Made by a program: the position numbers and the translations under genes. 38,876 bases of DNA from Acidimicrobiaceae bacterium (GTDB lineage Bacteria; Actinomycetota; Acidimicrobiia; Acidimicrobiales; RAAP-2), in contig PKXH01000027.1 of the NCBI GenBank assembly GCA_003133405.1, forward strand, positions 32,247 to 71,122, written 5' to 3'. Numbering within the stretch: position 1 is the stretch's first letter; every line of letters starts with the position of its first letter. The notes below the pieces were generated by a model, which had not been told where the DNA came from, did not search any database, and saw nothing but the letters and a program-made list of their open reading frames with translations. Positions 74-14,748 of this stretch are shown here, one piece after another.

Positions 74-838
74 TTGCCACGTCACATTCGAGCCCCACGT
101 CATTTCGACGAGTTGGATTCTGTGTCCATTCTGGACGGTTGCGCTGATGATCCCGGGTTCGAAATTCCGGTTGAAATTGGTTCTTTCGAAGAACCCTCAA
201 AAGCAAGTATTTATACCGGTAAAAGTGACTCACTTTTGGGCGCCGAGAGTGTTTTTTGGGGCACCACGGACAGCATCATTGACATGCCCAACAACGGACT
301 TTTGGTCAAGCACCAAGCAGACAATCTGGTAGCCAACATACGTGGTCGCCACGCTCGTATCGCCGCCGCCGCCCCCTTCCGAACGCGATTCCAATTAGCA
401 GAAATCCTGCCAATTTCCCCCGCCGCTCCGGCACTTGATTTTCCACTTACCACGCGCGCCATCGGTTCGAGCAGCCGAATCCGCTTCACCATCAATGGTC
501 AGACCCTCGCCGATATTCTCGATTGGAGGCCAGGACTTCTGGCCACCAGCCTCGACGGAGCCTGGGTCGTGTTGTGCCCCGATAAGTCCGGCCTTCCGTT
601 GCGCCGTCACGACGGTCGTGCTTCTTACTGTGAAGACAACCGCCTCCGTCTGTCAAGGGCACTTACTGTCAAGCTCGAACTTGATCTCGGCGACGAGGTT
701 GCCATCGTTGTTCTCCCCCGGCACGGCGCAATCGCTCTCTGCAATCCAAACCAATTTTTCAATGGCGCCCCACTGTCATTACTTACTGCTTCAACCGAGG
801 ACATTGCCAGCAATATTTCGAAAGGAATGACTCTATGA
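74..838 (+). CDS. AbrB/MraZ-like protein coupled to integrase
   Basis: This open frame of up to 254 residues is not fully recognised. Near residues 185-225 the stretch NRLRLSRALTVKLELDLGDE followed by a short beta-rich segment ending ALCNPNQF resembles the swapped-hairpin fold of SpoVT/AbrB or MraZ-type DNA-binding proteins. The N-terminal 180 residues match nothing I know. The stop overlaps the integrase start in ATGA, so the two are translationally coupled. That suggests a regulator of integration or an excisionase-like directionality factor, which is inference. The start is uncertain: the first codon is TTG at 74, with alternatives at TTG 113 or GTG 122, and none has a strong ribosome binding site. 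Confidence 0.6.
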   Translation: MPRHIRAPRHFDELDSVSILDGCADDPGFEIPVEIGSFEEPSKASIYTGKSDSLLGAESVFWGTTDSIIDMPNNGLLVKHQADNLVANIRGRHARIAAAAPFRTRFQLAEILPISPAAPALDFPLTTRAIGSSSRIRFTINGQTLADILDWRPGLLATSLDGAWVVLCPDKSGLPLRRHDGRASYCEDNRLRLSRALTVKLELDLGDEVAIVVLPRHGAIALCNPNQFFNGAPLSLLTASTEDIASNISKGMTL

Positions 839-2058
839 ACAACTCAAATGCTATCGATCCCATCGTGGGAATGCTTAACGCTCTCGGTTTAACTGTCGAG
901 GATCTTGTCGCCCATGTGGCATCCAATGAGACCGGTGACACCAATGCTGTGACTCTTGCTACTTACATCAGTTCAGCGAGCCGTAGTCTTTCCAAAACCA
1001 CGAAGAAGAGTTATTCCACTCACTTCAGGCATTTGATCAACGGCGTACCTCGGCAGTGCACATGCACATGCGACGTTTGCCTCAAGGCATGGAGCGATGC
1101 CGCGATGTGTAGTTGTGAGTGCGGCACTTGCAAAGATGCACTCGCGTTCCCCGCGATGGGAGATCGTTTCGTGTCACCACGATCTTTCACACAGACAGAA
1201 ATCGAGCCCCTTGCTCAGATCGTCGAACGTGCGGCAATCAAGCGCGCGATGCTGGAGAACGTTGTTCGTGCCAAGAGAGGACTGGCGCCCAAGCCTACGC
1301 ACGGTCAGGGTGCGCGTGAGATGTGCGTCACTGCTTTGCGATTCCTCTTCGTAAGGATGGTCAAGGACGAGCTAATTACAAAGAGCCCCGCCGCCGAGAT
1401 CTCAAAGGGAAAGCGAAGCGTCTCAAAACGTCGCGCTATTTCGGACAATGAGTTGGCTGAACTCTTGGAGATCGTGGCAACTGGAGGCGACGACCCGATG
1501 CTTGACCTCGCCATCAGCTGGGCCGAGTTTGAACTTGGTGCGCGTCGCGGTGGTGTCTTGAAGATGAACATTGGACACATTGATCGCATTGGACAACTCA
1601 TCAGCTTGTGGGAGAAAGGAAATCTCTTCCGACCACAGCCCTGTTCACTCGAACTCATCAATTTTTTGACGAACCTCGCCACTTCCAGAGGGGGTTCAAG
1701 TTGCATCGCTGGTCACCCAGACTTCAATCCGAATGCACCAGTGTTCTACTTTTCTGACGCAACCCCAGAGTTTCCGCACGGCCTTACGGGCCGTCGTTTC
1801 GACACATTGCACAAGCGCATTCAACTCAAACTGCCTTGGGCTAATTCAATCCTTTACACGGGTCACGCTTTGCGCCACACAATAAGCACGATGGTAGAGC
1901 GCATCGCTGGATTCGAAACTGCGAAGACCATGCTCGGTCACGCTGGCGGCACTCCGACCGACACATACGTGAAGGCAGGCCTGCCGGAAGTCGCGCGCGC
2001 CATAGCGGACATCACGGGGAGACCGCACCCGCTTGCCATCGATGAAGAGTCCGAATAA
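835..2058 (+). CDS. int: Tyrosine recombinase (integrase) with eight-cysteine module
   Basis: This 407-residue site-specific recombinase should integrate and excise the element. The catalytic set is visible: R237 in GARRGG, H344 and R347 in HALRHT, H369 in LGHA and nucleophile Y378 in TDTYVKA. A core-binding-like helical region spans roughly residues 120-195. Between residues 74 and 99 the protein carries two copies of C-x-C-x-C-x-x-C separated by ten residues, which is not a normal part of phage-type integrases and looks like a metal- or cluster-binding insertion. The start ATG overlaps the stop of the upstream AbrB-like gene. A short hairpin with a T-rich tail follows the stop. Its place next to the left repeat fits an element integrase. 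Confidence 0.93.
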   Translation: MNNSNAIDPIVGMLNALGLTVEDLVAHVASNETGDTNAVTLATYISSASRSLSKTTKKSYSTHFRHLINGVPRQCTCTCDVCLKAWSDAAMCSCECGTCKDALAFPAMGDRFVSPRSFTQTEIEPLAQIVERAAIKRAMLENVVRAKRGLAPKPTHGQGAREMCVTALRFLFVRMVKDELITKSPAAEISKGKRSVSKRRAISDNELAELLEIVATGGDDPMLDLAISWAEFELGARRGGVLKMNIGHIDRIGQLISLWEKGNLFRPQPCSLELINFLTNLATSRGGSSCIAGHPDFNPNAPVFYFSDATPEFPHGLTGRRFDTLHKRIQLKLPWANSILYTGHALRHTISTMVERIAGFETAKTMLGHAGGTPTDTYVKAGLPEVARAIADITGRPHPLAIDEESE

Positions 2059-2144: not shown

Positions 2145-2750
2145 GTGAGTATGACCCATTACGAACTGCTCGGAGTGTCTCAAGACGCCACCCTCGAGGA
2201 GATTGAGAGCGCATACCGACGTGCATCCAAAGCCTTCCACCCCGACGCAGGCGGTCCAGTATCCAATCCTGCGCTATTTCGAATGGTTGTCGAAGCACGC
2301 ACGGTTCTCGCAAACAGGAGCGACAGGGAAGATTATGACGCTGAGCTTCTCGGCGCTCAGTACTCTCAGCGCTCTGCCAACGTGAGCGGACCAACTCCGC
2401 CGCAGCAATCAAGAAAAGGGAAGACAACTCGGCCTCCATCGAATTCTTCGGCCCCCACGCGCAGCAAGAAAATGCAGCGGAGCTATTCGCTGTTGGCAAT
2501 CGCAGGAACGGACTATGTCGTAAGCAGATGGATCATCCAGTTCGGATTTCGAATTCACGTAGGACTGGTCTCGAATTTTGGCCACCAACTCATGGGGTTG
2601 GCGTTCATTCCCGTCATCGCCTTCGTAATCATCCCAAGAGAGCGCATCTTGAGACTTTGGGTTCGATTCCGAGCAGTGATGTCAAAGCACCACAAGATCA
2701 GTGCAACCAGGTTTAGGACGACTCGTACCGCATCGAATTCAAAAGGTTAA
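2145..2750 (+). CDS. J-domain protein with C-terminal membrane segment
   Basis: Residues 4-70 form a DnaJ-type J-domain: HYELLGVSQDATLEEI, then the HPD signature at residues 32-34, then the helix-IV-like NRSDREDYDAEL. Such domains stimulate the ATPase of DnaK/Hsp70. The middle (about 75-115) is Ser/Pro/Lys rich and probably disordered. Around residues 145-165 the hydrophobic run LMGLAFIPVIAFVIIP suggests one membrane span. The protein lacks the Gly/Phe and zinc-finger regions of DnaJ, so it is a specialised co-chaperone. Either GTG 2145 or ATG 2151 could be the start; the J-domain begins directly after the ATG. On a mobile element it may help replication or transfer complexes, as J-proteins of some phages and plasmids do, but no partner is indicated. 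Confidence 0.8.
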   Translation: MSMTHYELLGVSQDATLEEIESAYRRASKAFHPDAGGPVSNPALFRMVVEARTVLANRSDREDYDAELLGAQYSQRSANVSGPTPPQQSRKGKTTRPPSNSSAPTRSKKMQRSYSLLAIAGTDYVVSRWIIQFGFRIHVGLVSNFGHQLMGLAFIPVIAFVIIPRERILRLWVRFRAVMSKHHKISATRFRTTRTASNSKG

Positions 2751-2848: not shown

Positions 2849-2877
2849 TTGACAAATCGTGAATAAAAGGCTACTTT
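2849..2877 (+). promoter_or_regulatory. Promoter of the defence operon
   Basis: A perfect TTGACA at 2849-2854 is followed after 17 bases by TACTTT at 2872-2877. Transcription would start near 2884, leaving about 40 bases of leader before the ATG at 2924. It lies in an AT-rich gap between the J-domain gene and the unknown gene and would drive all four overlapping genes to 8953. The HTH-ImmA protein is the obvious candidate regulator. Confidence 0.7.
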
Positions 2878-2923
2878 GCTGGACACGCATATCATGTCAG
2901 ACAAAGAGGGTGGAATCCAATCA

Positions 2924-3577
2924 ATGACTAACGAAGAACTAGAACGAGTCTTCACTTCGCAGATCCCCGAGGCATTCCAGCGAAGGGCGTTGGGCTCAGT
3001 CTTCGCCTCTTATCGCATAAGCAAAGAGCAGTGTCGGATTCAGTTCGCCCCTACTGAAGCCGTAAACGTTGAGCCATTTTATCGACGCGGCGTGCTTGAA
3101 GGGCAACTGAGGGACTCCGCGGGACTATCCCCGGAATTGATCGCGCGAACTGCGCGTGCCGAGGGGAGTAATTGGAATCACACGGAGATTCAGGGTGGCC
3201 AAGTCGTCCTAACAGCAAGCGCCGTACCCAGCGCCGGAGCAGTGGTGAGGAAGGCCGACTACCGCATTGACCTCGCCCAAACTAATGCTCCCACTTTGTT
3301 CAGCGCATTTAATGAGAATGAACAGACGCCGTTGTACGCGATTCTGATTCACAGCCGAAGTCTCTGGGATACCCATGAAGAGCGTGCCAAATTCGGTCAT
3401 CTTCCTGGCTCGGCTTACATCGCTTTTCCCGACCAATCACTTGATGGGTACATGCACAAGTTCAATCTCTTTGAAAAGTACCCTGACATCGTGGAGCGTC
3501 ATCAGCCCGACGACTTGAGTGGTTTGGCAAAACTTCGTTACATCCAGCGATCTCAGGCTGGTTTCTGGGCAGCATGA
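2924..3577 (+). CDS. Unknown protein, first gene of restriction operon
   Basis: I do not recognise this 217-residue protein. It is soluble, without signal peptide, membrane segment, cysteines in pairs or any catalytic motif I can name. Notable stretches are PLYAILIHSRSLWD in the middle and LAKLRYIQRSQAGFWAA at the C-terminus. The open frame begins at TTG 2876 inside the promoter -10 box; ATG 2894 would be almost leaderless, while ATG 2924 has a purine-rich ggtgga upstream, so 2924 is preferred. Its stop overlaps the start of the HTH-ImmA gene in ATGA, which implies tightly coupled production. It may be the substrate, inhibitor or sensor partner of the protease-regulator, or an accessory subunit of the restriction system; the sequence does not decide. 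Confidence 0.75.
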   Translation: MTNEELERVFTSQIPEAFQRRALGSVFASYRISKEQCRIQFAPTEAVNVEPFYRRGVLEGQLRDSAGLSPELIARTARAEGSNWNHTEIQGGQVVLTASAVPSAGAVVRKADYRIDLAQTNAPTLFSAFNENEQTPLYAILIHSRSLWDTHEERAKFGHLPGSAYIAFPDQSLDGYMHKFNLFEKYPDIVERHQPDDLSGLAKLRYIQRSQAGFWAA

Positions 3578-4782
3578 AGAGTGGCACGCCAGGATTTGTT
3601 GGAGGACGGCTTCGTGAAGCACGCGAGGCACGGGGACTTTCAGCGATAGCGCTGTCAGACATCGCGGGCGTCACGCGTCAGACAATGTCGCAATACGAAA
3701 AGGATCAAGCGACCCCAGGGCCAGAAGTCTTGGCACGCATTTCTTCAAGACTGAATCTTCCCGAACAATTCTTTATGTTGCCACTGCGGGAAACAGAGCG
3801 CGGAACCATTTTTTTCAGATCGATGGCTGCTTCGACAAAGACAGCTCGCACGCGCGCAGAGAGTCGCTTTGCGTGGCTGCAGGATATTACTGAATACCTG
3901 ACAGAGTTTGTTGAACTCCCTGAAGCAGATTTTCCAGTCTTGTCGTTACCTGAAGATCCCTTATTGATCTCTGACGACGACATCGAGGAAGCCGCCGCAA
4001 ATTTACGCGCATACTGGAACCTAGGCGAGTTGCCAATCGCCAATATGGTTTCGCTTCTTGAAAACAAGGGGGCAATAATCGCTCGCGGCGCACTGGGCGC
4101 TGAAACCTTGGACAGCCTTTCTGAGTTCGCCCCCGGGCAAAAGCGTCCATTCATATTGATCGGCACGGACAAGGGGACATCATCTCGTTGGCGTTTCGAC
4201 GCCGCGCACGAACTCGGTCACATTATTTTGCACGCTCACGTCCCGCCAAGTTTGCTGGCAAAGGCCGACAGATTCAAACTGATTGAAAGCCAAGCGCATC
4301 GTTTTGCCGGTGCGTTTTTACTGCCATGCGCTTCGTTTGGAGATGATCTTTACGGCGCCAATCTCGATAACTTCAAGACACTGAAACTGAGGTGGAAAAT
4401 ATCGATCTCTGCAATGGTCATGCGTGCTCGTCAATGCGGAATGATCACAGAGGAAACAGAACGACGATTATGGATCAACCTATCTCGAAGGGGTTGGCGC
4501 AAGTTGGAGCCGTATGACGACACGATGCCTCCAGAAGAGCCGAGACTACTAAGAAGTGCAATCGAACTCATTCTTGAGCAGGGGGGACAGACACCGGATG
4601 AGATCCTGGGCAGGCTGGCACTGTCATCGTCTGATCTCGAATCTCTCACCGGTCTTCCAGACGAGTTTCTCACTTCGTTCTCTCGGGTCTCACTACGACA
4701 GCAGAGTTTCGAAGCCGAGACTACGTCTGAGACCTCAACGGCCCAAATCATTCCTCTAAGACCTCGCCGCCGGACTGTCTAG
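3574..4782 (+). CDS. XRE-family HTH fused to ImmA/IrrE zinc peptidase
   Basis: Residues about 10-65 are a Cro/C1-type helix-turn-helix (LSDIAGVTRQTMSQYEKD). The central part carries the zinc peptidase motif HELGH at residues 212-216 and the downstream acidic helix IESQAHRFAGAFLLP with the probable third ligand E238. ImmA of ICEBs1 and IrrE of Deinococcus cleave separate repressors to induce genes; here DNA binding and protease are in one chain, a common fused architecture. The C-terminal 100 residues (after about 300) are less conserved and may sense a signal. The gene is sandwiched by overlaps between the unknown gene and Mod, so it probably regulates this restriction operon. Its substrate is unknown. 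Confidence 0.9.
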   Translation: MKSGTPGFVGGRLREAREARGLSAIALSDIAGVTRQTMSQYEKDQATPGPEVLARISSRLNLPEQFFMLPLRETERGTIFFRSMAASTKTARTRAESRFAWLQDITEYLTEFVELPEADFPVLSLPEDPLLISDDDIEEAAANLRAYWNLGELPIANMVSLLENKGAIIARGALGAETLDSLSEFAPGQKRPFILIGTDKGTSSRWRFDAAHELGHIILHAHVPPSLLAKADRFKLIESQAHRFAGAFLLPCASFGDDLYGANLDNFKTLKLRWKISISAMVMRARQCGMITEETERRLWINLSRRGWRKLEPYDDTMPPEEPRLLRSAIELILEQGGQTPDEILGRLALSSSDLESLTGLPDEFLTSFSRVSLRQQSFEAETTSETSTAQIIPLRPRRRTV

Positions 4783-6578
4783 TGGCGATCGACAAGCCCA
4801 AGAAGATGCAACCACTCTCGACGCCCCGGGAGAAAGTAATGGGACTTGCTGAAGCTTTGGACGAGCTCATTGTCCTACGGCTGCGCTTGGAGCGGAAGGA
4901 ATCTGAAGCCGGGTTCGGTCTCGTCTGGGAAGACATTCAGGAGAACGTAGAAGGACTTCTAGTAGCGGAGGTTCCCGTCTTGGCCTCCGTTTCCACTCTC
5001 GATGTCAAGGGGGGCAAACCATACGAAGCACCTCACGTATTGATCGAGGGGGACAATCTTCACGCGCTGCACACTCTGCAAGCCACTAATCGCGACACGG
5101 TGGACGTCATCTACATAGACCCTCCATACAACACGGGAAAGGAGTTCATCTATAACGACAAGTTGGTCGATGCCGAAAGTACATTCCGTCACTCGGCTTG
5201 GCTGTCGTTCATGTCGAAGCGTCTGCGACTTGCCCACAGTCTTCTTGCGCCAAGCGGGCTGATCTTCATCAGTATTGACGATAACGAACAGGCAAACCTC
5301 AAGTTGCTCTGCGACGAAGTGTTTGGCGTATTGAACTTCGTGACCTGCGCCCCAACCATTATGAACCTGAAGGGCAACCAAGATCAGTTTGCCTTCGCCG
5401 GAACTCACGAATACACGCTGGTCTACGCAAAGGACAAGACACAGTCCATTGTTGGGCAGTTCGAAGTAGATGAAGAAGCGATGCTTGACGAGTGGGAGAC
5501 TGACGAGTACGGATGGTGGAAACGCGGCGCCGGTCTCAAGGCCACTGGTGTTAATGCCCCCCGCTCAAAACGCCCGAACCTTTGGTATCCCCTCTATGTG
5601 GCTAAAGACTCAACGTACGTTTCACCTGTGCGTCAAAAGTCCACCGATGTTGAGATCTGGCCGAAGACTTCTGGCAATGAAATGTCATGGCGGTGGTCGT
5701 CGACTACCGCGGACGAGCGAAGTTATGACCTCATCGCGGTCGGCACTTACCCCAACTTCACGATTTACAAAAAACAGCGACCCGGCCTAGGTGACCTCCC
5801 AAGCAAGAAGCCGAAGAGCACGCTCTACAAGCCCGAATACTCAACTACGAATGGGACCAACACGCTCAAGAAAATCCTCGGAGACCGAAGCTTTCCCAAT
5901 CCAAAGCCGGTCGATCTGATCAAAGATCTCGTGTCGCTCTGTGCGCTTCGCGACGATGCAGTCGTTCTCGATTTCTTTGCGGGTTCAGGCACCACACTTC
6001 AGGCAGTGGCTGAACTCAACGCTGAAGACGGCAAGCACCGCCGCTGCATTCTCGTGACGAACAACGAGAACAACATCTGCAGAGAAGTCACGCAACCTCG
6101 AATTGCCGCGATTCTCTCTGGCAAGTGGGCCGACGGAAAACACGAAGCCCTCCCAGGATCACTGGCGTTCTATAAGACAGACTTCATCGTGCGCCGCAAG
6201 AACCTGGACCGAATGCGATCCGATATCGCCAGGCACACGGTGGATCTTGTCGCCATCAAAGAAGGGGCACAGCGCAAGGGTCTTACAGGCACCGACTTCA
6301 CAATGCTGACTGGCCCGGCGAAAAGCATCGCAGTAGTGACTTCTCTTTATCCCGATCACGCCGCTGTGCACGAAGCCGCAACGTCTGCGGCTCGGGCGGA
6401 CGACGCCAAAAGCGCCTACCTCTTCACTTGGAGCGATCAGGGCATCGAAGCCGAATTAGTGGAGCAGTGGGAAGGTTGGAATGTTCAACCACTGCCTGCC
6501 GAAATGCTCGCAGCGCTGAGACGCCTTGCGCCCACTCAGTCACTCTTTGATGAAGCGAGCACGGGAGAAGAGGGTTGA
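4782..6578 (+). CDS. mod: Type III restriction-modification methyltransferase (Mod)
   Basis: This 598-residue protein would methylate adenine in a short asymmetric site and supply sequence recognition to the Res subunit. Motif IV is DPPYNTG at residues 113-119, and the AdoMet-binding motif I, VLDFFAGSGTT, is near residues 394-404. This IV-then-I order is the beta class used by type III Mod proteins. The recognition domain lies between them (about 170-370), containing the variable stretch around GWWKRGAGLKATG. The GTG start shares its first base-pair overlap with the TAG stop of the HTH-ImmA gene, and its own TGA overlaps the Res start. Length is close to the family norm. Specificity cannot be read from sequence. 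Confidence 0.92.
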   Translation: MAIDKPKKMQPLSTPREKVMGLAEALDELIVLRLRLERKESEAGFGLVWEDIQENVEGLLVAEVPVLASVSTLDVKGGKPYEAPHVLIEGDNLHALHTLQATNRDTVDVIYIDPPYNTGKEFIYNDKLVDAESTFRHSAWLSFMSKRLRLAHSLLAPSGLIFISIDDNEQANLKLLCDEVFGVLNFVTCAPTIMNLKGNQDQFAFAGTHEYTLVYAKDKTQSIVGQFEVDEEAMLDEWETDEYGWWKRGAGLKATGVNAPRSKRPNLWYPLYVAKDSTYVSPVRQKSTDVEIWPKTSGNEMSWRWSSTTADERSYDLIAVGTYPNFTIYKKQRPGLGDLPSKKPKSTLYKPEYSTTNGTNTLKKILGDRSFPNPKPVDLIKDLVSLCALRDDAVVLDFFAGSGTTLQAVAELNAEDGKHRRCILVTNNENNICREVTQPRIAAILSGKWADGKHEALPGSLAFYKTDFIVRRKNLDRMRSDIARHTVDLVAIKEGAQRKGLTGTDFTMLTGPAKSIAVVTSLYPDHAAVHEAATSAARADDAKSAYLFTWSDQGIEAELVEQWEGWNVQPLPAEMLAALRRLAPTQSLFDEASTGEEG

Positions 6579-8953
6579 TGTCCGGCCCGGAGCCAAAGGA
6601 GTACCAGTCGGAGGCAATCGTCAAAATTGCCGACGCTCTTACCCAGCTTCTTGTCATTCCAGAGATCGATGACCGCTTGCTCGTTCTAAAGGCACCCACC
6701 GGCTCGGGTAAGACACTGACCGCCGCATACGCCCTTTCGAAAACACACGACAGACCTCAGAATCCACCATTCATTATTCTGTGGCTCTCTCCAGGTAAGG
6801 GCAACCTTCACAAACAATCGGCTAAAGCACTGTCGTCGATTTTGGCCAACTCCTCGCTTGACGTCAAACTCCTCGATACTCGAGACGACATCGTGGCCAA
6901 CTCGACGCCGGTGAGTGGTTCGTTGTTCGTTGTGAACTGGGAGAAGTTGCGCACAGAAAGGGACGGCGAATGGGCGAACAAGATGCTCCGAAAAGGCGAG
7001 ACTGCCAACCTATTTACGTTGCTCTTCAACACAACGAAGCAAGGGATGGACATGATCGTCGTTATCGACGAGAGTCACACTCAGTTGGACGGCCCTCAAA
7101 CGGTGAAGCTGATGGCCGCGATCAAGAGCTTTCGCCCTTTTATTCAGTTCGAGATATCCGCAACGCCCACGAGAGCGCTCGACGAGGAGATGCGAGAGGA
7201 GGGCGTACACCATTCGGTCGTCATTCCGTTTCGCAAAGTGGAGGCCGCCGGTATGGTGCGCCGCTCCGTATTGCTCAACCCAGACTTTGAGGAAGTTCAG
7301 AAGGAGCATCCAACCGACACACTTGACTTGCAAGTGCTCTGGGCAGCATGGGAAAGAACTGAACAACTCAAAAGGCAGTTCGAAGCCACCGGTTCGCCGG
7401 TGAAACCACTCATGTTGATTCAATACCCCGACGGCGCGGAAGCCAGGCTTCGTGCGGAAGTCGTGGAGAAGTTTCTGAGGGACCGGGGCTTATTGTCCAA
7501 CTCAACCTATGCGACTTGGCTGACGGAAGAGCACTCGCCCAACCTCGATCTCATCGCACAGAATTCAAGTTCCTATCGAGCACTAATTTTTAAGCAGGCC
7601 ATCGCTACGGGCTGGGATTGTCCGCGTGCCCAGGTACTGGTCCAGTTCCGCAAACCTGGATCTGATACGTTCCAGATTCAGACGCTAGGTCGATTGATGC
7701 GAACGCCCGAGCAGAAGCACTACGACAATGAAGACCTAAACGTTGCTTACGTTTATTCGGACTTGGCCGGTGTCACGGTCAAGATTACGAGCGACGAGCC
7801 GGGCTTCGCGCTTCGAGACACAACGATCACTCGCGGCCCACTGTATCCGAGCGTGGGTCTCAAACTACGGTCAGTTTTCCAGCCTCGCCGTCGCGAGTTC
7901 CACTATCCGACCACCTCAACTCTTGAGCCAGCACTATTTTCAGAACTCAATGTGAAGGTCAAGCCTTTGCTCGTAAAACCACCGATTCGAGAAACGCGTC
8001 GCGATGTTCTCGTGGACGGTTCGCTCGACGCCAAGGCGGTAGTCGGCGGAAGCGAAGCCGCGTTCGACGGCGCCTTCGTTGATGGGGTGCTCGGCGAACA
8101 ATTCGTCCAGGCACTTTACGACCAGGTAATCACTTCTCGCATTGGTCCATACCGTTCACGTGAACAGAGCCGTTCTCGGATTAAGACATCACTTGTCAAA
8201 TGGTTTCAGTCTGAGATCCAGTGGCAGCCCGACGAGATCCAACACTTCGTGCTTGAACAAAGTGGGACGGTCTCTGAGGCCATCGATGCCGCCTGTCACA
8301 TTGCATCCGCATCGGACGAAGCAAAGGCCATCATTGACGCGCGACTTCGGCGTCGCACCACAGACGACTGGGAAGTGCCTCGCTCCGAACTAATAGCCAG
8401 TGACAATTGGGAGAAGCCGGAGGCTATCGGTACGCTGTTCATTCCTCCCCTTGTTCCCATTGGTCGTAGTAAACCCGAACTCCGCTTCGAACATTGGCTC
8501 GGCATCGAGGTGAATGCAAACCGCGTCGTCTGGTGGTGGAAAAATGGTGTGCGCGATGAGAAGTACTTGGGAATTCCTTACAAACTCATCGCACCGGTAA
8601 CGGGTGTAGCGAGCGAAGAAATTACTTACCCCGACTACATCGTGATGAGCGCTTCGGAAGAAGTCTGGATCATTGAAGTCAAGGACATCGATGATCCAGA
8701 CGGCGAGGCTGGAGGCGCAACTTCATGCAAAGCTCGCGGCCTCGCGGTCTGGGCCGAAGAGATGAGCGCGCTCCATCAGACGAACACTGAACTCCTGAGT
8801 TTGACGCCGGTGCGGGCTGTCGTAGTCGTTCCAGGAGCAGGCGGTGAAAACGACATCTCTGTAAAAGTAGGTTCACCATCCGACTGGCAAGAGCCAACTC
8901 CAGCGAACCACTCCACTGGTCATGGTTGGACGCCTATCAACTTCGCCGACTGA
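6578..8953 (+). CDS. res: Type III restriction enzyme helicase-nuclease (Res)
   Basis: This SF2 translocase cuts DNA after ATP-driven signalling between unmethylated sites. From ATG 6578 (the TTG at 6575 is less likely), Walker A is APTGSGKT at residues 39-46, the DEAH-type box is VVIDESHTQ near 160, motif III is ISATPTRA near 190-200, and QTLGRLMRTPE near 365-375 is motif VI. A PD-(D/E)xK nuclease lies at the C-terminus: YPDYIVM and WIIEVKD near residues 683-701. At 791 residues it is somewhat shorter than the classical EcoP enzymes but complete in domains. The start overlaps the Mod stop (TGATG-type coupling), as expected for subunits of one complex. Confidence 0.92.
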   Translation: MSGPEPKEYQSEAIVKIADALTQLLVIPEIDDRLLVLKAPTGSGKTLTAAYALSKTHDRPQNPPFIILWLSPGKGNLHKQSAKALSSILANSSLDVKLLDTRDDIVANSTPVSGSLFVVNWEKLRTERDGEWANKMLRKGETANLFTLLFNTTKQGMDMIVVIDESHTQLDGPQTVKLMAAIKSFRPFIQFEISATPTRALDEEMREEGVHHSVVIPFRKVEAAGMVRRSVLLNPDFEEVQKEHPTDTLDLQVLWAAWERTEQLKRQFEATGSPVKPLMLIQYPDGAEARLRAEVVEKFLRDRGLLSNSTYATWLTEEHSPNLDLIAQNSSSYRALIFKQAIATGWDCPRAQVLVQFRKPGSDTFQIQTLGRLMRTPEQKHYDNEDLNVAYVYSDLAGVTVKITSDEPGFALRDTTITRGPLYPSVGLKLRSVFQPRRREFHYPTTSTLEPALFSELNVKVKPLLVKPPIRETRRDVLVDGSLDAKAVVGGSEAAFDGAFVDGVLGEQFVQALYDQVITSRIGPYRSREQSRSRIKTSLVKWFQSEIQWQPDEIQHFVLEQSGTVSEAIDAACHIASASDEAKAIIDARLRRRTTDDWEVPRSELIASDNWEKPEAIGTLFIPPLVPIGRSKPELRFEHWLGIEVNANRVVWWWKNGVRDEKYLGIPYKLIAPVTGVASEEITYPDYIVMSASEEVWIIEVKDIDDPDGEAGGATSCKARGLAVWAEEMSALHQTNTELLSLTPVRAVVVVPGAGGENDISVKVGSPSDWQEPTPANHSTGHGWTPINFAD

Positions 8954-9279: not shown

Positions 9280-10503
9280 TCATTTTGAAATGTCAAGTGG
9301 CCGAGCGATCGCGACATGAGCCCACCTCCCACTCTGAATTACTGCAGCTTCTCCGTTTGGCAAAGACCTCAACATGTCCGGCGGAACCCTGTACTGCTGC
9401 TGCAAGCGTCCGCTCGTCGCCACTCGGACTCCCAGACCGTCGGCCATCTGCGAGTCCTCCCACACCTGAACCGTTCCGGCGAGTTCCACGATGGCATCTG
9501 GCAACGGTGTGCGATGACTGATCACCGTGCCACATGTCTGGAGCAACCGGTCGGCGGCACCACCTAGGCTCGCCACGGTCTGCGCGCCGATAACGATCGC
9601 AATGCCCGCGGACCTTGTTCTCTCAACCAAACCCGCCAGAAATTGACTAGCTCGTTGGTCTTGTCCTACCGCTGAGAACTCGTCCAGACAGATAATTGTT
9701 CGTCGATTATCCGGGGACGCGGCGAGTTCGCCGATCATTGCGAGTAACCACGAAGCGACGTCACCCGCTGTTTGAGGAGCGGATGTACCCGGCACACTGA
9801 TCCACGCTGCATCGACTTCTCGAAGGCTCCATGCCAAGGGGCAACTATCGAAGCGGTCCCCAACAGTGGCGGCGATTGCTCGAAGTCGTAGATAAACAGA
9901 GTTCCACTGGGCGTTAGCGAACGACGACGCTTCGGCTTTCAGTGCGAGTGATCGCTCCGTCACCTGAAGTTCGTAGAGAGCCGACGTTACGCCAGGGCGT
10001 ACTCGCTCGATGAGTTCGGCCAACGAGCGAGGAGGTGAACCGGCACCTAGCGCGAGGTCGAGCATGGTCACCGCTTCGGCATGGTGGAACGGACTCTCGC
10101 CGCCGTGGAATAGACCACTCAGCCGCTCGCGCAACTGCGCAACATTTCCGTCGAAGCCGCGCAGCGGTTGTTCGGGCCAGTAGCGGATGTTCCGGTAACC
10201 CCTGTCCCACGCGAGTTCACCGAACTGTTGTCGGTTCTGGTCAGCTAGCCCTTTTGCATCTATGAAAAGAATTCGTATAGGGGGTTCGCCTGGGTTCGCC
10301 TGGCTGAGCCGCATAAAGGTACTCACAAGTCGAAGTTGCGTGACGGTCTTGCCTGTTCCGGTGCCACCGATAATGCACAGATGGCGCGTGAGGTCTTCAA
10401 ACGAGAGACCCACGAGAGAAGTCGGTCCACACGGCCCGACAGCACTCCGCACGGCCAACGCTCGTAGGTCTCCGTCGAGCATCGTGCCCAGGATGGCCCT
10501 CAT
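9280..10503 (-). CDS. TraD/VirD4/HerA-like DNA-transfer ATPase
   Basis: This 407-residue P-loop ATPase has Walker A IIGGTGTGKT near residues 39-48 and Walker B TIICLDEFSAVGQD near residue 270. The later motif IAIVIGAQT resembles the sensor strand of coupling proteins. The family pumps DNA to or through a secretion or conjugation channel. It has no membrane segment of its own; the immediately upstream 178-residue membrane protein overlaps it by ATGA and could supply the membrane anchor, a split arrangement compared with single-chain TraD. It is the last gene of the minus-strand operon. Assignment to the coupling-protein superfamily is firm, the exact subfamily is not. Confidence 0.75.
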   Translation of the reverse strand: MRAILGTMLDGDLRALAVRSAVGPCGPTSLVGLSFEDLTRHLCIIGGTGTGKTVTQLRLVSTFMRLSQANPGEPPIRILFIDAKGLADQNRQQFGELAWDRGYRNIRYWPEQPLRGFDGNVAQLRERLSGLFHGGESPFHHAEAVTMLDLALGAGSPPRSLAELIERVRPGVTSALYELQVTERSLALKAEASSFANAQWNSVYLRLRAIAATVGDRFDSCPLAWSLREVDAAWISVPGTSAPQTAGDVASWLLAMIGELAASPDNRRTIICLDEFSAVGQDQRASQFLAGLVERTRSAGIAIVIGAQTVASLGGAADRLLQTCGTVISHRTPLPDAIVELAGTVQVWEDSQMADGLGVRVATSGRLQQQYRVPPDMLRSLPNGEAAVIQSGRWAHVAIARPLDISK

Positions 10504-11036
10504 CGGCTCACCTCGGGAATGTCACCTGAACGGTGCCACCGGCGCAGTAGTTGCAGACGTCGTGCTTGCTGACGCTGCCACACTCGTAAGTCCACGGTCG
10601 TCCGATTGACGACGCGTCGGTCAAAGGCCATAAAGGTTGCAACGGCCAGCATGGAAGCGATCAGTTCAACGCAGTAGCCAAGGGCTACTGCAAGTGGCAT
10701 CCCAACATGAGAGGAACGACTCCAGGTGAAAGTGTGCACAACTGTGATGAGAAAGACCGAGGGTCTGGCGAAGATCGACGCGATAGCGAATCCAGTAATC
10801 ACGTACGCTCCGGCTACTCGTATCAGTTCGACAGGTCGCAACTCGAGCAACCAGGTCATGGCAATCACTTCGCCGAGGACCAGCAAGCCAAATGGGGGAA
10901 CCAGAGATACCACGACGGCCACAAGCACTCCAATGTGCCAAAGCAATTCCCTCGCACCTCGCGGCGCGGCAAGTGGCACCAAAGGCCAACGCTCTTCGTC
11001 GCGGTGGTGCCCACTTGCGTTACGCATTACGGCCAC
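10500..11036 (-). CDS. Small membrane protein, partner of transfer ATPase
   Basis: This 178-residue protein has about four hydrophobic segments: ELLWHIGVLVAVVVSLVPPF, LVLGEVIAMTWLLEL, VAGAYVITGFAIASIFA and VALGYCVELIASMLAVATF, followed by a basic tail (WQRQQARRLQLLRRWHR). No family is recognised. Start and stop both overlap neighbouring genes (10 bases with the relaxation-like gene, 4 bases with the ATPase), so it is part of the same transfer operon. A membrane anchor for the soluble ATPase is the simplest role, by inference. Confidence 0.7.
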   Translation of the reverse strand: MAVMRNASGHHRDEERWPLVPLAAPRGARELLWHIGVLVAVVVSLVPPFGLLVLGEVIAMTWLLELRPVELIRVAGAYVITGFAIASIFARPSVFLITVVHTFTWSRSSHVGMPLAVALGYCVELIASMLAVATFMAFDRRVVNRTTVDLRVWQRQQARRLQLLRRWHRSGDIPEVSR

Positions 11037-11758
11037 CGGACTATGTGCAATCTCGACGCAAGATCACCGGGTAGACGCTCTTGAGCGTGGGTTACCACCG
11101 AGATCGCCTCGTCAGTGGCGTAATAACACACGGCGTGGTAACGCGGCGGCAACGACGCGACGACAACGTCACTGGTGGCGTCGTAATCGTATCGACGGGT
11201 CAGTAGACCCATCTGGATATTTCTGGTTCGCTCAATTGTTTTGGCGACACGCTCGCGCTCAATGGCCACGATTCGACCGTCGGGCATAAGCACTTCACCG
11301 TCAGGGAGGTGAGGTGAACTCTGCCCGCGAGTACGCGGCGGGACCACGGCTCGAATAGATCTCTCACTTCGCCAACCAATGTCATTTGGGTAGCCAGTCT
11401 GAATAGTAAGTCGAATGGCGACGACATCAGCGTTGTGCGAGAGGGTTGAAAGCGCAGGCTCTTCGCTCGGAAAGCTCTGCCCGCTGACGCGCATCCCTGC
11501 CGCAGTCAGCCAGACAAAAGGTGGCTGGCCACTCAGCAAGGTTCGGCTTGTGGCCCACCCGCGATCGAGCCAACGACTGACGGTCTTACGCGCAGCGTCG
11601 GGGCTGACAGGTCGTTGATCGACCTGAGAGAAAAGCGTCGCAAGTTGGTCGATCCGCATTGCGCCCTGGTCTGCACACCAGTTCATACCGACGAGATCGC
11701 GAGTTCCGTAACGAACGCTACCGGCGTCGCGTCGCCGTCTTTTTGTATCGCTCACCAT
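11027..11758 (-). CDS. Replication-relaxation-like protein
   Basis: This 243-residue protein resembles the actinobacterial plasmid replication-relaxation family. An N-terminal winged-helix region (IDQLATLFSQ, then TVSRWLDRGWATSRTLL and PPFVWLTAAGMRVSG, residues about 35-95) is followed by an alpha/beta part with HNADVVAIRLTI, LMPDGRIVAIERERV and RRYDYDATSDVVVA. The last part has a restriction-endonuclease-like look (D-x-E-x-E strand), though nuclease activity is not shown. A perfect GGAGG precedes the start by three bases to ATG 11758; GTG 11755, one codon later, has better spacing. It is the first gene after the structured intergenic block and may act on an origin located there. Confidence 0.6.
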   Translation of the reverse strand: MVSDTKRRRRDAGSVRYGTRDLVGMNWCADQGAMRIDQLATLFSQVDQRPVSPDAARKTVSRWLDRGWATSRTLLSGQPPFVWLTAAGMRVSGQSFPSEEPALSTLSHNADVVAIRLTIQTGYPNDIGWRSERSIRAVVPPRTRGQSSPHLPDGEVLMPDGRIVAIERERVAKTIERTRNIQMGLLTRRYDYDATSDVVVASLPPRYHAVCYYATDEAISVVTHAQERLPGDLASRLHIVRWP

Positions 11759-11777
11759 TGTCCTCCTTGCTTTTACG

Positions 11778-11853
11778 TTTTTCTTTCCCTTTCTTTTTCT
11801 CTTTCTCTTTCTCTTTCATTGTTTTCTTTTTCTTTTTCTTTTTCTTTTCCTCT
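11778..11853 (-). repeat. Polypurine/polypyrimidine low-complexity tract
   Basis: On plus the stretch is almost pure C/T, with uninterrupted pyrimidine runs at 11778-11817 (40 bases) and 11822-11853 (32 bases) built of ctttct and cttttt units. On the coding minus strand it becomes a GAAA-rich leader directly upstream of the replication-relaxation gene. Such mirror-like tracts can form triplex DNA and melt unevenly. It stands out sharply against the surrounding GC-rich DNA. Confidence 0.85.
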
Positions 11854-11882
11854 ACTTCTTCTCTTTTACTTTGATTGCTATT

Positions 11883-11940
11883 TCTTTCTTCCCAACCCCA
11901 ATATCTCGTTTTGCTGAGAGGGTGGGGTTGGGAAGAAAGA
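11883..11940. repeat. 18-bp perfect inverted repeat
   Basis: The arm at 11883-11900 (tctttcttcccaacccca) is perfectly complementary to 11923-11940, separated by 22 bases. No T-run follows on either strand, so it does not look like an intrinsic terminator. It adjoins the polypurine tract and a second hairpin. Confidence 0.85.
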
Positions 11941-11950
11941 GAAGCAATCC

Positions 11951-11982
11951 CTGGAGGTCGCTCTCTAAGGAGTGACCTCCAG
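11951..11982. repeat. 13-bp inverted repeat with 6-base loop
   Basis: ctggaggtcgctc at 11951-11963 pairs with gagtgacctccag at 11970-11982 with one mismatch (a G-U pair in one strand's RNA). Together with the neighbouring 18-bp repeat it occupies the 327-base gap between the helicase and the replication-relaxation gene. Candidate roles are an origin, a nick site or a protein binding site. A smaller repeat TCCGCT-c-AGCGGA lies near 12081-12093. Confidence 0.8.
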
Positions 11983-12085
11983 TAGATGACCGTCCGGGGA
12001 GTTGATTGGTCGGCACGTATTGGACGCCGTTTGGCCAAGAGAGCGACCGGCATTAGGCAGTAGGTCGGTGACTGTAAGGTTCCGC

Positions 12086-13465
12086 TCAGCGGAGTCTTAT
12101 CCCCTGGTAGTGGAAACGGTTCGCCTTCCCCCGACGGCGCCGGGTGACCGTATCGACGAAGTTCATTCGGTGACCGAACTCTTGTTGTTGCATCGTCGGA
12201 CGGTCCACTTGTCCGCACCACTGCAAGTAGGTTTCGTAAAGTTCAGCGGCTCCCGTAAATGCTCCGCCCACGATCTCCGCGCATTCTTCGAGAAACGCGC
12301 TGAGTACGTCCTGCTCACTGCGGTAGTTATTGGTCGCTGCATTCCACGTCTTTGGAAGGGTAGGAAGTGCGCCTCGCTGGTACCAACTCACTGCGCCCTT
12401 TACGGCCCAGGCAACAACGCCCTCAAGTTCTGCATGAAGATCCGACGGTAACGCTTTGTCGGCTCCGACTTCGAACTCCCTTTCGAACGGCACTACGACC
12501 AGTCGGCGCCAAATTCCTATATCGCTTCCGCGCACTGTCGGCAGATGGTTTGTCGCCAGGAAGTATTTTGCTTGGGGTATGAATTCGGTGTAGTTCTCGT
12601 ACAGCTTGCGAGCAGTCATGGAATCGCCAGCAATAAGTCCTTTCACTCGCGACTCGTTAATGGTCTGGCCAAAGTCAGTCTCAGTGAGTATGGCGCAACG
12701 CGCTCCTTGCAAACGAGCGAGGTCACTATTCGCTCCGTTTGAAGCGGGACGACCGAGCAAGACTGACTCAGGGGTTTGTTGCGCATAATCGGAGCCCAGC
12801 GCTGATTTGACCGTATGTAAGAGCGTGCTCTTACCGTTGGAACCCTTGCCGACGAGCAGCCACATCTTCTGCTCAGTGGTATCGCCGGTCAAGGTGTATC
12901 CGATGAGTTCTTGAAAGTACTTCTGAACGTCCGCACTCGGACCAAGCACCTCCTTCAAGAAACGCTGCCATCGCGGGGCGGATGCCTTAGGGTTGTATGA
13001 CACCGGGAGACGCTTTGTGACTATCTCGCTACGGTCGAACGATCGAATCTTTCCAGTCCGTAAGTCCAGTACTCCATCTGGCGTACCAATGACGTCGGAC
13101 GAGGCGTCAATCGACGCATTCGACACCTGAAGTTGAGCACTTCTACTCGCCAGAGAAATGACACCATTGATGCCGCTGTTGTTCATTAGACCTCGACACT
13201 TCCGGGGGCGCCACTTCTTGAAGTTTCTGAGTTCAATTCCTTTCAAGGCATCCGATGGTTCCATTGTCTCGAGGTGCCGGAGCGTTTCAATGACCAACGA
13301 AGTTAGGCGGGAACTTTCGTGGTCCCATGTCCAACCGCTCGCTTGATCAAAAACGAGCCATTTCTGTTGCGAGGAACTGAATCGAATGTCTTCGCCATGC
13401 AGTTCAATCACTGATTCGACAACTTCCACCGGTGTGATGTCACCCGGGAGTTCGCTGATGGTCAT
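12086..13465 (-). CDS. D5/P4-family plasmid-phage helicase (primase C-terminal part)
   Basis: This 459-residue protein has the D5-N region (TPDGVLDLRTGKI near residues 130-145) and an SF3 helicase: Walker A LVGKGSNGKSTLL near 205-217, Walker B-like CAILTETD near 255, and the sensor AKYFLATNHLP near 295, followed by IWRRLVVVPFE. Proteins of this family unwind replication origins of phages, satellites and integrated plasmids. An N-terminal primase-polymerase domain, common in the family, is absent, so priming must come from elsewhere. The start overlaps the stop of the upstream methyltransferase (ATGA). It supports autonomous replication of the excised element. Confidence 0.9.
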   Translation of the reverse strand: MTISELPGDITPVEVVESVIELHGEDIRFSSSQQKWLVFDQASGWTWDHESSRLTSLVIETLRHLETMEPSDALKGIELRNFKKWRPRKCRGLMNNSGINGVISLASRSAQLQVSNASIDASSDVIGTPDGVLDLRTGKIRSFDRSEIVTKRLPVSYNPKASAPRWQRFLKEVLGPSADVQKYFQELIGYTLTGDTTEQKMWLLVGKGSNGKSTLLHTVKSALGSDYAQQTPESVLLGRPASNGANSDLARLQGARCAILTETDFGQTINESRVKGLIAGDSMTARKLYENYTEFIPQAKYFLATNHLPTVRGSDIGIWRRLVVVPFEREFEVGADKALPSDLHAELEGVVAWAVKGAVSWYQRGALPTLPKTWNAATNNYRSEQDVLSAFLEECAEIVGGAFTGAAELYETYLQWCGQVDRPTMQQQEFGHRMNFVDTVTRRRRGKANRFHYQGIRLR

Positions 13466-14748
13466 AGGTCTCTCTCCTTCTTGAGGGTTTTGTGTCCCCG
13501 TTTTTCACCGGAGGATGCCCGGCTACCACTTGATGGTTCGGACTTACGGCGCGGACGCACGGAGGTTGATTGGACGCCGGACGAACCCCGGCGAACTGCC
13601 GTTTTGTCTTCTTTGTTTTGCGTGACACGATCGATTCGAGCTTCAATGAGGGACCAGTAACGCGGCTCCAGTTCGCAGCCGACAACGTTGCGCCCACACA
13701 GCAGCGCTGCTTCGGCAGTGGTCCCACTTCCAAGAAAAGGATCAAGGACAACCTGACCGGGCCGACTTACTGCTTCAATGAGACGGCTAATTAGAAGGAG
13801 TGGTTTTACCGTTTCGTGCTTCACGCCATCGGCTCCGACCGGGCGCTCAGCTTTGCTCGCCTTGGCAACCGAGAGCAGGCCATGTCCGATTGAAGTCTCA
13901 GAAAATAGATGGGTCGCGTACATCGCGCCCTCTTGGTCGTCAAGACGACAGAGGCAAACTGCCTCCGCACAATCACTGTCGTGAACGAACCACACGTTGG
14001 ACGCGAGGCGGTCGCTCCCCGTAATGGCTCTATGATCAAGAGCTCCGACGCCGAACTCGATAACGTTTTCTATGGTCTCGACATCGTCGTCGAATGGCTT
14101 TCGGGCGACCACTATCGGTTCGTGTCCCGGACGCAACGTGGAGCGGTGGTCTGACAACTGTTCGGCGAGCCGCGCGTCATCGTAGTCGGCGGCTACCCGA
14201 CCAAGATCCCGTGTGGCCTGCCGACCTGGTGCGTAAACCCAATTGATGAGGTCACGAACTTCGAAGCCCGCGAGTTGGATCGCCACTTGGGTGAGCCCTA
14301 CGGTTCGCGTGGCGGCAAATGCAAGAAGAAAACCACCGGGGGCGAGAACGCGGAGGACTTCGCGCCAAAGTTCGGGGCCGGGTACCGAGTTGTCCCAATC
14401 AGCTCCGTCGTAACCATTGCTGTCGTTATAGAAAGTCTCGCCCTTTAGCCACGCGTGCAGCATGTCCTCGAGTTCGAGGTTGCTTGTCAGCCCATAGGGA
14501 GGGTCGCAAACGACCGCGTGAACACTTTCGGACGCTACATTTTTTAGTTGCTCGGAAGCGTCGCCTTTCAGAAAGGTGAAGGAGGGAGGCAGAATAACTT
14601 TCTTCACTTGACAGACCGTCCCGAGCGGCGGCGCTGGGACCTTTTGTTTTGATGAACTTTTCAGTTGTGTTTTGATCACGAGTTGATGATGTGGATTTCG
14701 CAATGAAACACACGCTCTGCGTCCTATTGGACGCTTCGTAGCCAACAT
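13462..14748 (-). CDS. Orphan beta-class DNA methyltransferase
   Basis: The catalytic motif IV is CDPPYGL at residues 81-87 and the AdoMet motif I is LDPFLGSGTT at 335-344, with motif X-like KHETVKPLLLISRLI before it. The order IV then I is the beta class (adenine-N6 or cytosine-N4). Phage-type enzymes with the central GHEPIVVARKP motif (about 208-218) often methylate adenine or cytosine without a cognate nuclease, and none is adjacent here. The basic C-terminal tail after 385 is disordered. Overlapping the helicase gene, it may protect the element from host restriction or mark its origin. The first 55 residues are not conserved-looking, so a later start is possible. Confidence 0.88.
   Translation of the reverse strand: MLATKRPIGRRACVSLRNPHHQLVIKTQLKSSSKQKVPAPPLGTVCQVKKVILPPSFTFLKGDASEQLKNVASESVHAVVCDPPYGLTSNLELEDMLHAWLKGETFYNDSNGYDGADWDNSVPGPELWREVLRVLAPGGFLLAFAATRTVGLTQVAIQLAGFEVRDLINWVYAPGRQATRDLGRVAADYDDARLAEQLSDHRSTLRPGHEPIVVARKPFDDDVETIENVIEFGVGALDHRAITGSDRLASNVWFVHDSDCAEAVCLCRLDDQEGAMYATHLFSETSIGHGLLSVAKASKAERPVGADGVKHETVKPLLLISRLIEAVSRPGQVVLDPFLGSGTTAEAALLCGRNVVGCELEPRYWSLIEARIDRVTQNKEDKTAVRRGSSGVQSTSVRPRRKSEPSSGSRASSGEKRGHKTLKKERDL
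14719..14734. repeat. Palindrome GCGTCC-tatt-GGACGC
   Basis: This second copy of the CGTCC-N4-GGACG motif found at the left end overlaps the first codons of the methyltransferase gene, where a bound protein could also block its expression. Confidence 0.55.

Follow-up and report, generated by a model that had tools for sequence, protein, structure and literature searches.

How does a type III restriction pair come to stand, in a tightly packed gene cluster, behind an HTH-protease gene and a further gene of less obvious kind, and do the four belong to one system? The question is raised by a 38,876-nucleotide stretch of an Acidimicrobiaceae genome (GenBank assembly GCA_003133405.1, contig PKXH01000027.1), here called the window, of which the following features are concerned, all numbered from its first letter.

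2849..2877, plus strand: putative promoter, TTGACA-N17-TACTTT, read directly from the sequence, 47 nt upstream of the first ATG
2924..3577, plus strand: rmrT, candidate RosmerTA toxin, 217 aa (PADLOC RmrT, iterated profile)
3287..3301, plus strand: APTLF codons, RmrT residues 122-126, a degenerate copy of an xxLF motif (family alignment)
3574..4782, plus strand: rmrA, XRE-HTH and M78 fusion, candidate RosmerTA antitoxin/regulator, 402 aa (PADLOC RmrA, Pfam)
4207..4221, plus strand: HELGH zinc-protease motif, RmrA residues 212-216 (alignments)
4782..6578, plus strand: mod, type III DNA methyltransferase, 598 aa, GTG start (Pfam, PADLOC, PDB matches)
6575/6578..8953, plus strand: res, type III restriction subunit, about 791 aa (ResIII, REase_III)

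An earlier reading made from the sequence alone had described four overlapping genes laid out like an operon, a fused HTH-ImmA protein as the second of them and a type III Mod-Res pair as the last two, all of which the present analysis bears out. In the ORF check the four genes lie where they had been placed, and neighbours overlap by 4 bases (rmrT/rmrA), by 1 base (rmrA/mod, the mod GTG start and the rmrA stop having one base in common) and by 1-4 bases (mod/res). Longer TTG or ATG starts are possible for rmrT upstream of the ATG at 2924; the latter is most likely the true one, since it is there that close homologues, when aligned, also start. The same reading had put the cluster behind one strong promoter, of which the TTGACA box (2849-2854) stands and the strength does not: the -10 element TACTTT, after a 17-bp spacer, matches TATAAT at three of six positions, and a sigma-70 scan left the site below threshold, calling no plus-strand promoter between 1500 and 10500. 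It is the sole TTGACA-N16-18-TANNNT site in the window, where 0.20 would be expected; at least one such site turned up in 18 of 100 shuffles of the window. A single promoter shared by the cluster is plausible. Repeats were searched for in the promoter region and none were found, hence no operator could be identified.

The restriction genes are the more easily placed. Mod matches N6_N4_Mtase in Pfam (4.2e-36), MTase_III in PADLOC (5e-79) and, in the PDB, Mbo45V (5.7e-56) and the EcoP15I Mod (2.3e-33); with DPPY near 5118-5129 and FAGSG near 5976-5990, its motifs follow the beta-class order, as expected of a type III Mod, i.e. a beta-class N6/N4 methyltransferase resembling known Mod proteins. 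The adjacent Res combines an SF2 helicase with a C-terminal nuclease, as type III Res subunits do (ResIII of Pfam, 2.7e-12; REase_III of PADLOC, 4.8e-13; a PD-(D/E)XK-like motif, PDY...EVK, read by eye at about 8620-8692). It is more divergent than Mod, reaching the EcoP15I Res by sequence at E 0.25 only. G242, a second genome from this genus, has a homologous Mod-Res pair (52% identity for Mod, 881 bits for Res).

Gene 2 matches the PADLOC RmrA profile over residues 1-374 (E 3.7e-129), and in Pfam it carries HTH_3, an XRE-type HTH (1.3e-11), and Peptidase_M78 (5.8e-11), the M78 part having CapP as its only PDB match. An XRE HTH fused to M78, RmrA-like along its length, is what characterises a RosmerTA antitoxin. 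Downstream of HELGH, E238 is invariant across the close clade in the alignments. An ImmA-ImmR arrangement, in which repressor and protease are separate proteins, does not apply, HTH and protease being united in one protein; a second XRE gene was sought within the cluster and none was found. In RosmerTA, a toxin-antitoxin family, the part of the antitoxin is played by an ImmA-type protease that frequently bears an HTH (PMC10440598); the family is validated as a toxin-antitoxin system and acts in phage defence (PMC10440598; PMC12322248).

Gene 1 had been called unrecognised, which remains correct for Pfam, NCBIfam and PHROGs, where it has no match, and fails for PADLOC, which recognises it as RmrT with a modest score (E 2.1e-9). 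Relatives of it from three further genomes of actinobacteria (L002, L003/L006 and L004) and from plasmids (L030-L034) are all located directly upstream of RmrA, and most of them score as RmrT in PADLOC. A profile iterated from gene 1 and its kin over the ORFs adjoining every RmrA found recruits about 50 proteins from the toxin position, all directly upstream of RmrA; its E-values come from a small, preselected set, so that the chain is supportive, not absolute. Along the same line, an ORF of toxin size abuts RmrA on the upstream side in 67 of 74 RmrA clusters (built at 90% identity). A tblastn search of plasmids and phages gave no close RmrT, and a search of genome contigs with four RmrT proteins returned two loci only, both already in the set. 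A RosmerTA toxin gene is expected to adjoin RmrA, and gene 1 does so, with a 4-base overlap; together with the PADLOC and iterated-profile matches, this makes it a candidate RmrT, the toxin partner of the pair. The suggestion that gene 1 might be an extra effector is supported, and its product may also be a substrate of the HTH-protease. Judged by sequence, genes 1 and 2 are a self-contained RosmerTA toxin-antitoxin pair.

The surroundings of the cluster look in part like those of a mobile element. A tyrosine recombinase gene lies upstream (835-2058, plus strand), and downstream, on the minus strand (9280-14748), are genes for a T4CP/HerA-like ATPase, a D5_N/DUF5906 primase-helicase and a second N6_N4 DNA methyltransferase; from about 14.9 kb on, the genes have a chromosomal look. 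To judge by these flanking genes, a mobile element may carry the cassette as cargo. Integration ends were sought, and no tRNA, att site or long direct repeats were found. Just upstream of rmrT there is a DnaJ-domain protein (2145-2750, plus strand); a DnaJ protein, also with an Mrr_cat nuclease domain, is found near the homologous Mod-Res of G242 (L050, 3406-4539, minus strand). At another locus (L051, 8239-15243), a protein of 1033 residues, PHP-like at its start and bearing an ATPase-like motif, stands between type III Mod and Res; here too a Mod-Res pair contains an insertion. An IS1-like transposase or a fragment of one lies directly beside RmrTA in L036 (2154-3023) and L061 (6006-6302, minus strand).

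Whether RmrTA and the restriction genes form one device can be asked from how often they travel together. Mod and Res are both present in the locus for only 3 of the 74 RmrA clusters, namely the window, L061 and L062. None of five plasmid RmrTA loci contains restriction genes; among 80 viral-contig Mod loci, of which 65 also gave a Res match, there is none with an adjacent RmrA; and the Mod-Res pair of G242 occurs without RmrTA. As each mostly occurs without the other, RmrTA and Mod-Res are independent modules. In two copies of a single viral-contig lineage (L095/L205), RmrTA and a divergent type III Mod-Res lie some 5 kb apart.

The association has nevertheless been made repeatedly. The gene order is toxin-antitoxin-Mod-Res in the window and Mod-Res-toxin-antitoxin in L062, while in L061 the restriction genes diverge from the toxin-antitoxin pair; across the three loci, Mod is 28-41% and Res 23-33% identical. 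In the RmrA tree the window groups with L037 and L036, both lacking Mod-Res, and L061 and L062 group with L010, which forces at least two changes of the Mod-Res label, the flanks being only partly covered in L036, which begins at the toxin gene, and in L010, which ends 1 kb after RmrA. Pairing of type III genes with close RmrTA relatives thus appears to have arisen at least twice.

These data bear on two other accounts of the cluster. According to the first, two independent modules merely lie side by side on a mobile element, as plain defence-island neighbours with no functional coupling; the low count of joint loci (3 of 74), the recombinase, D5-type primase and T4CP-like genes flanking the cassette and the IS1-like pieces beside RmrTA in L036 and L061 all speak for it, and the repeated pairing itself could reflect ordinary defence-island clustering. 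The 4- and 1-base overlaps at the rmrT/rmrA and rmrA/mod junctions and the two or more origins of the pairing within a group of close relatives speak against it, and I regard it as rather unlikely. The second account is that of the sequence-only reading: a dedicated, damage-inducible protease-regulator that delays Res until Mod has protected the DNA, with gene 1 as its substrate or sensor. The overlapping order with rmrA directly before mod, the control of an immune operon by M78 proteases such as CapP (PMC10904395) and the existence of repressors of restriction islands, e.g. RptR (PMC12255303), would agree with it. Yet homologues of the two upstream genes occur mainly without restriction genes, the very outcome that the sequence-only reading had named as refuting it, and Mod-Res occurs without RmrTA, the toxin-antitoxin genes do not lead an operon in L062 or in the divergent L061, and Mod and Res, following RmrA on what would be the same message, leave no obvious means of delaying Res. 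A protease-regulated restriction system in the dedicated sense is not supported by the neighbourhoods, and this second account is quite unlikely; autorepression of the shared promoter by RmrA might still set mod-res transcription. The best reading is a layered cassette, in which type III restriction is combined with an abortive-infection-type pair.

What, then, would RmrT do? Many RmrT proteins share a short motif that resembles the beta-clamp motif QL(S/D)LF, the consensus for binding bacterial sliding clamps (PMC9690074). In the RmrT alignment, the columns at xxLF hold F in 71-81% and L in 64-69% of sequences, and L129 and F130 are conserved at 90% or more in A9. The kin of gene 1 read QPNLF, QAGLF, QGQLF, QPSLF, TPDLF or NMDLF at this place, and beyond the iterated family the equivalent position in other RmrT proteins is occupied by QLSLF, QLELF, QGSLF or QEDLF; a conserved QL(S/D)LF-like motif across the family is what a group of clamp-binding toxins would be expected to show. 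The pattern Q..LF occurs in 20 of 64 non-redundant RmrT against 9 of 363 ORFs of comparable length from the neighbourhood (p=7e-12, for a motif noticed post hoc and mechanical control ORFs) and, once RmrT is shuffled, against a mean of 2.2 of 64, and it clusters near 57% of protein length. The alignment including L061-L063 is too divergent for a pattern scan.

The window protein is itself a poor example of the motif. Its APTLF has no glutamine and is not a canonical clamp motif, and its best clamp-type pentamer, scored with a PWM of such pentamers, is no better than chance (p 0.4). Its L125-F126 is among the most conserved pairs of the family and sits in the lowest-confidence loop of the AlphaFold2 model (pLDDT 59 for residues 121-130; pLDDT 90 and pTM 0.88 for the whole). 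By hhalign, APTLF falls opposite QLSLF of a distant RmrT group (probability 56%, E 1.1e-4 in a single comparison), and in the models of the window protein and of a distant member alike the elements run HHH-EEE-H-loop-E, the motif falling where H passes into the loop. Since its own motif is degenerate and scores no better than chance, a clamp target for this RmrT is inferred from family resemblance. The family motif agrees with RipA, a Rosmer toxin whose targeting of DnaN has been shown by genetics and whose toxicity suppressors map to the hydrophobic partner pocket of the clamp (PMC12795458). That paper, in whose main text the word "motif" is absent, is the only one in the literature searched that names both Rosmer and the sliding clamp.

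A PD-(D/E)XK-type nuclease toxin, rather than a clamp binder, is the other mode of action to be weighed. The alpha-beta-beta-beta-alpha-beta order of RmrT fits a nuclease core, and the models lean towards such enzymes, one weakly to EcoRV, Hjc and NucC (E 0.05-0.3), a second to Hjc (prob 0.87, E 0.027); fold searches gave no significant structural match, none falling below E 0.001, a D...(D/E)xK pattern is not conserved in the sheet, and conserved polar columns are few overall, all of which renders the nuclease improbable. A pore-forming RmrT, as in phage Kita (see below), is rejected for want of a TM helix (maximal 19-residue hydropathy 1.06).

Returning to the layered cassette with a clamp-blocking toxin, the course of events could be as follows. 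In the normal state, the XRE domain of RmrA would repress the shared promoter and RmrA would keep RmrT inactive, while host DNA would be protected by Mod and unmodified DNA cut by Mod-Res. The alarm would be ssDNA arising from phage replication or DNA damage, or else the loss of RmrA. For the M78 relatives PprI and CapP the activator is ssDNA (PMC10904395), which suggests it as the signal for RmrA as well, with replication intermediates or restriction debris as possible sources. RmrT would then be freed and the promoter derepressed, and the freed toxin would stop the cell, most likely by placing its xxLF loop in the partner pocket of the DnaN sliding clamp, so that replication is halted by clamp blockage, as proposed for RipA. 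The observations behind this scheme are family membership by sequence, gene order, the independence of the modules elsewhere, their repeated pairing and the family motif; the toxicity of RmrT, its neutralisation, regulation, trigger and clamp target are what I infer. Taken in full, with restraint by RmrA, ssDNA alarm and clamp-blocking RmrT, the composite defence cassette is the probable explanation of the cluster. A bolder version, namely that RmrT toxins are largely sliding-clamp poisons acting through the xxLF loop, here wired to type III restriction such that the M78 domain of RmrA is set off by ssDNA from phage replication or restriction and replication is shut down where restriction by itself does not suffice, is put forward tentatively, as possible rather than probable.

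The components of the cassette are all of known kinds. The closest parallel to the toxin-antitoxin part is RmrTA of the Gordonia phage Kita, which likewise joins an XRE-M78 antitoxin to an adjacent variable toxin; RosmerTA systems are mobile, often phage- or plasmid-borne, and the toxin-first order is also known among them (PMC10440598). The Kita toxin depolarises membranes and is predicted to have TM segments; the window RmrT lacks these and falls into a different toxin group, and of the two pairs only that of the window has type III mod-res behind it in one cluster. RipAB of S. pneumoniae (Spr1630-Spr1629) also couples a Rosmer toxin to an XRE-ImmA antitoxin, and the action of its toxin has been traced to the partner pocket of DnaN (PMC12795458), where the xxLF motif would lead one to expect it; it is only a distant relative, RmrA of the window scoring 208 bits with NF052239 (spr1629/RipB) against a curated cut-off of 335. 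SocB of C. crescentus resembles the proposed RmrT in acting on DnaN, which it binds via the usual clamp-binding motif (PMC9690074); its antitoxin logic differs, and no homology to RipA is reported (PMC12795458).

On the restriction side, the window shares with type III systems such as EcoP15I and Mbo45V a beta-class Mod beside a Res helicase-nuclease, its Res being short (about 791 aa vs 970) besides barely matching that of EcoP15I. For a toxin-antitoxin pair inside a restriction cluster there is a precedent in the RptR-DarTG2-type I RM-M48 island of E. coli, where DarTG2 lies within a type I system that is likewise accompanied by a transcription regulator (PMC12255303); that island relies on a type I RM, on DarTG and on a small repressor separate from these, whereas the window has RosmerTA, a type III system and the antitoxin itself as would-be regulator. 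As far as the literature searched shows, what is new is the RosmerTA-type III arrangement, in three loci and different orders, and the prediction of a clamp motif in RmrT.

To conclude, most RosmerTA toxins have no known target, and the motif found in many of them, which resembles a clamp-binding one, turns the single genetic case of RipA and DnaN into a family-wide prediction. The cluster in the window adds a further toxin-antitoxin pair joined to a restriction system, and this bears on how bacteria layer their defences and on the way in which a suicide system kept as back-up could sense that restriction has failed.
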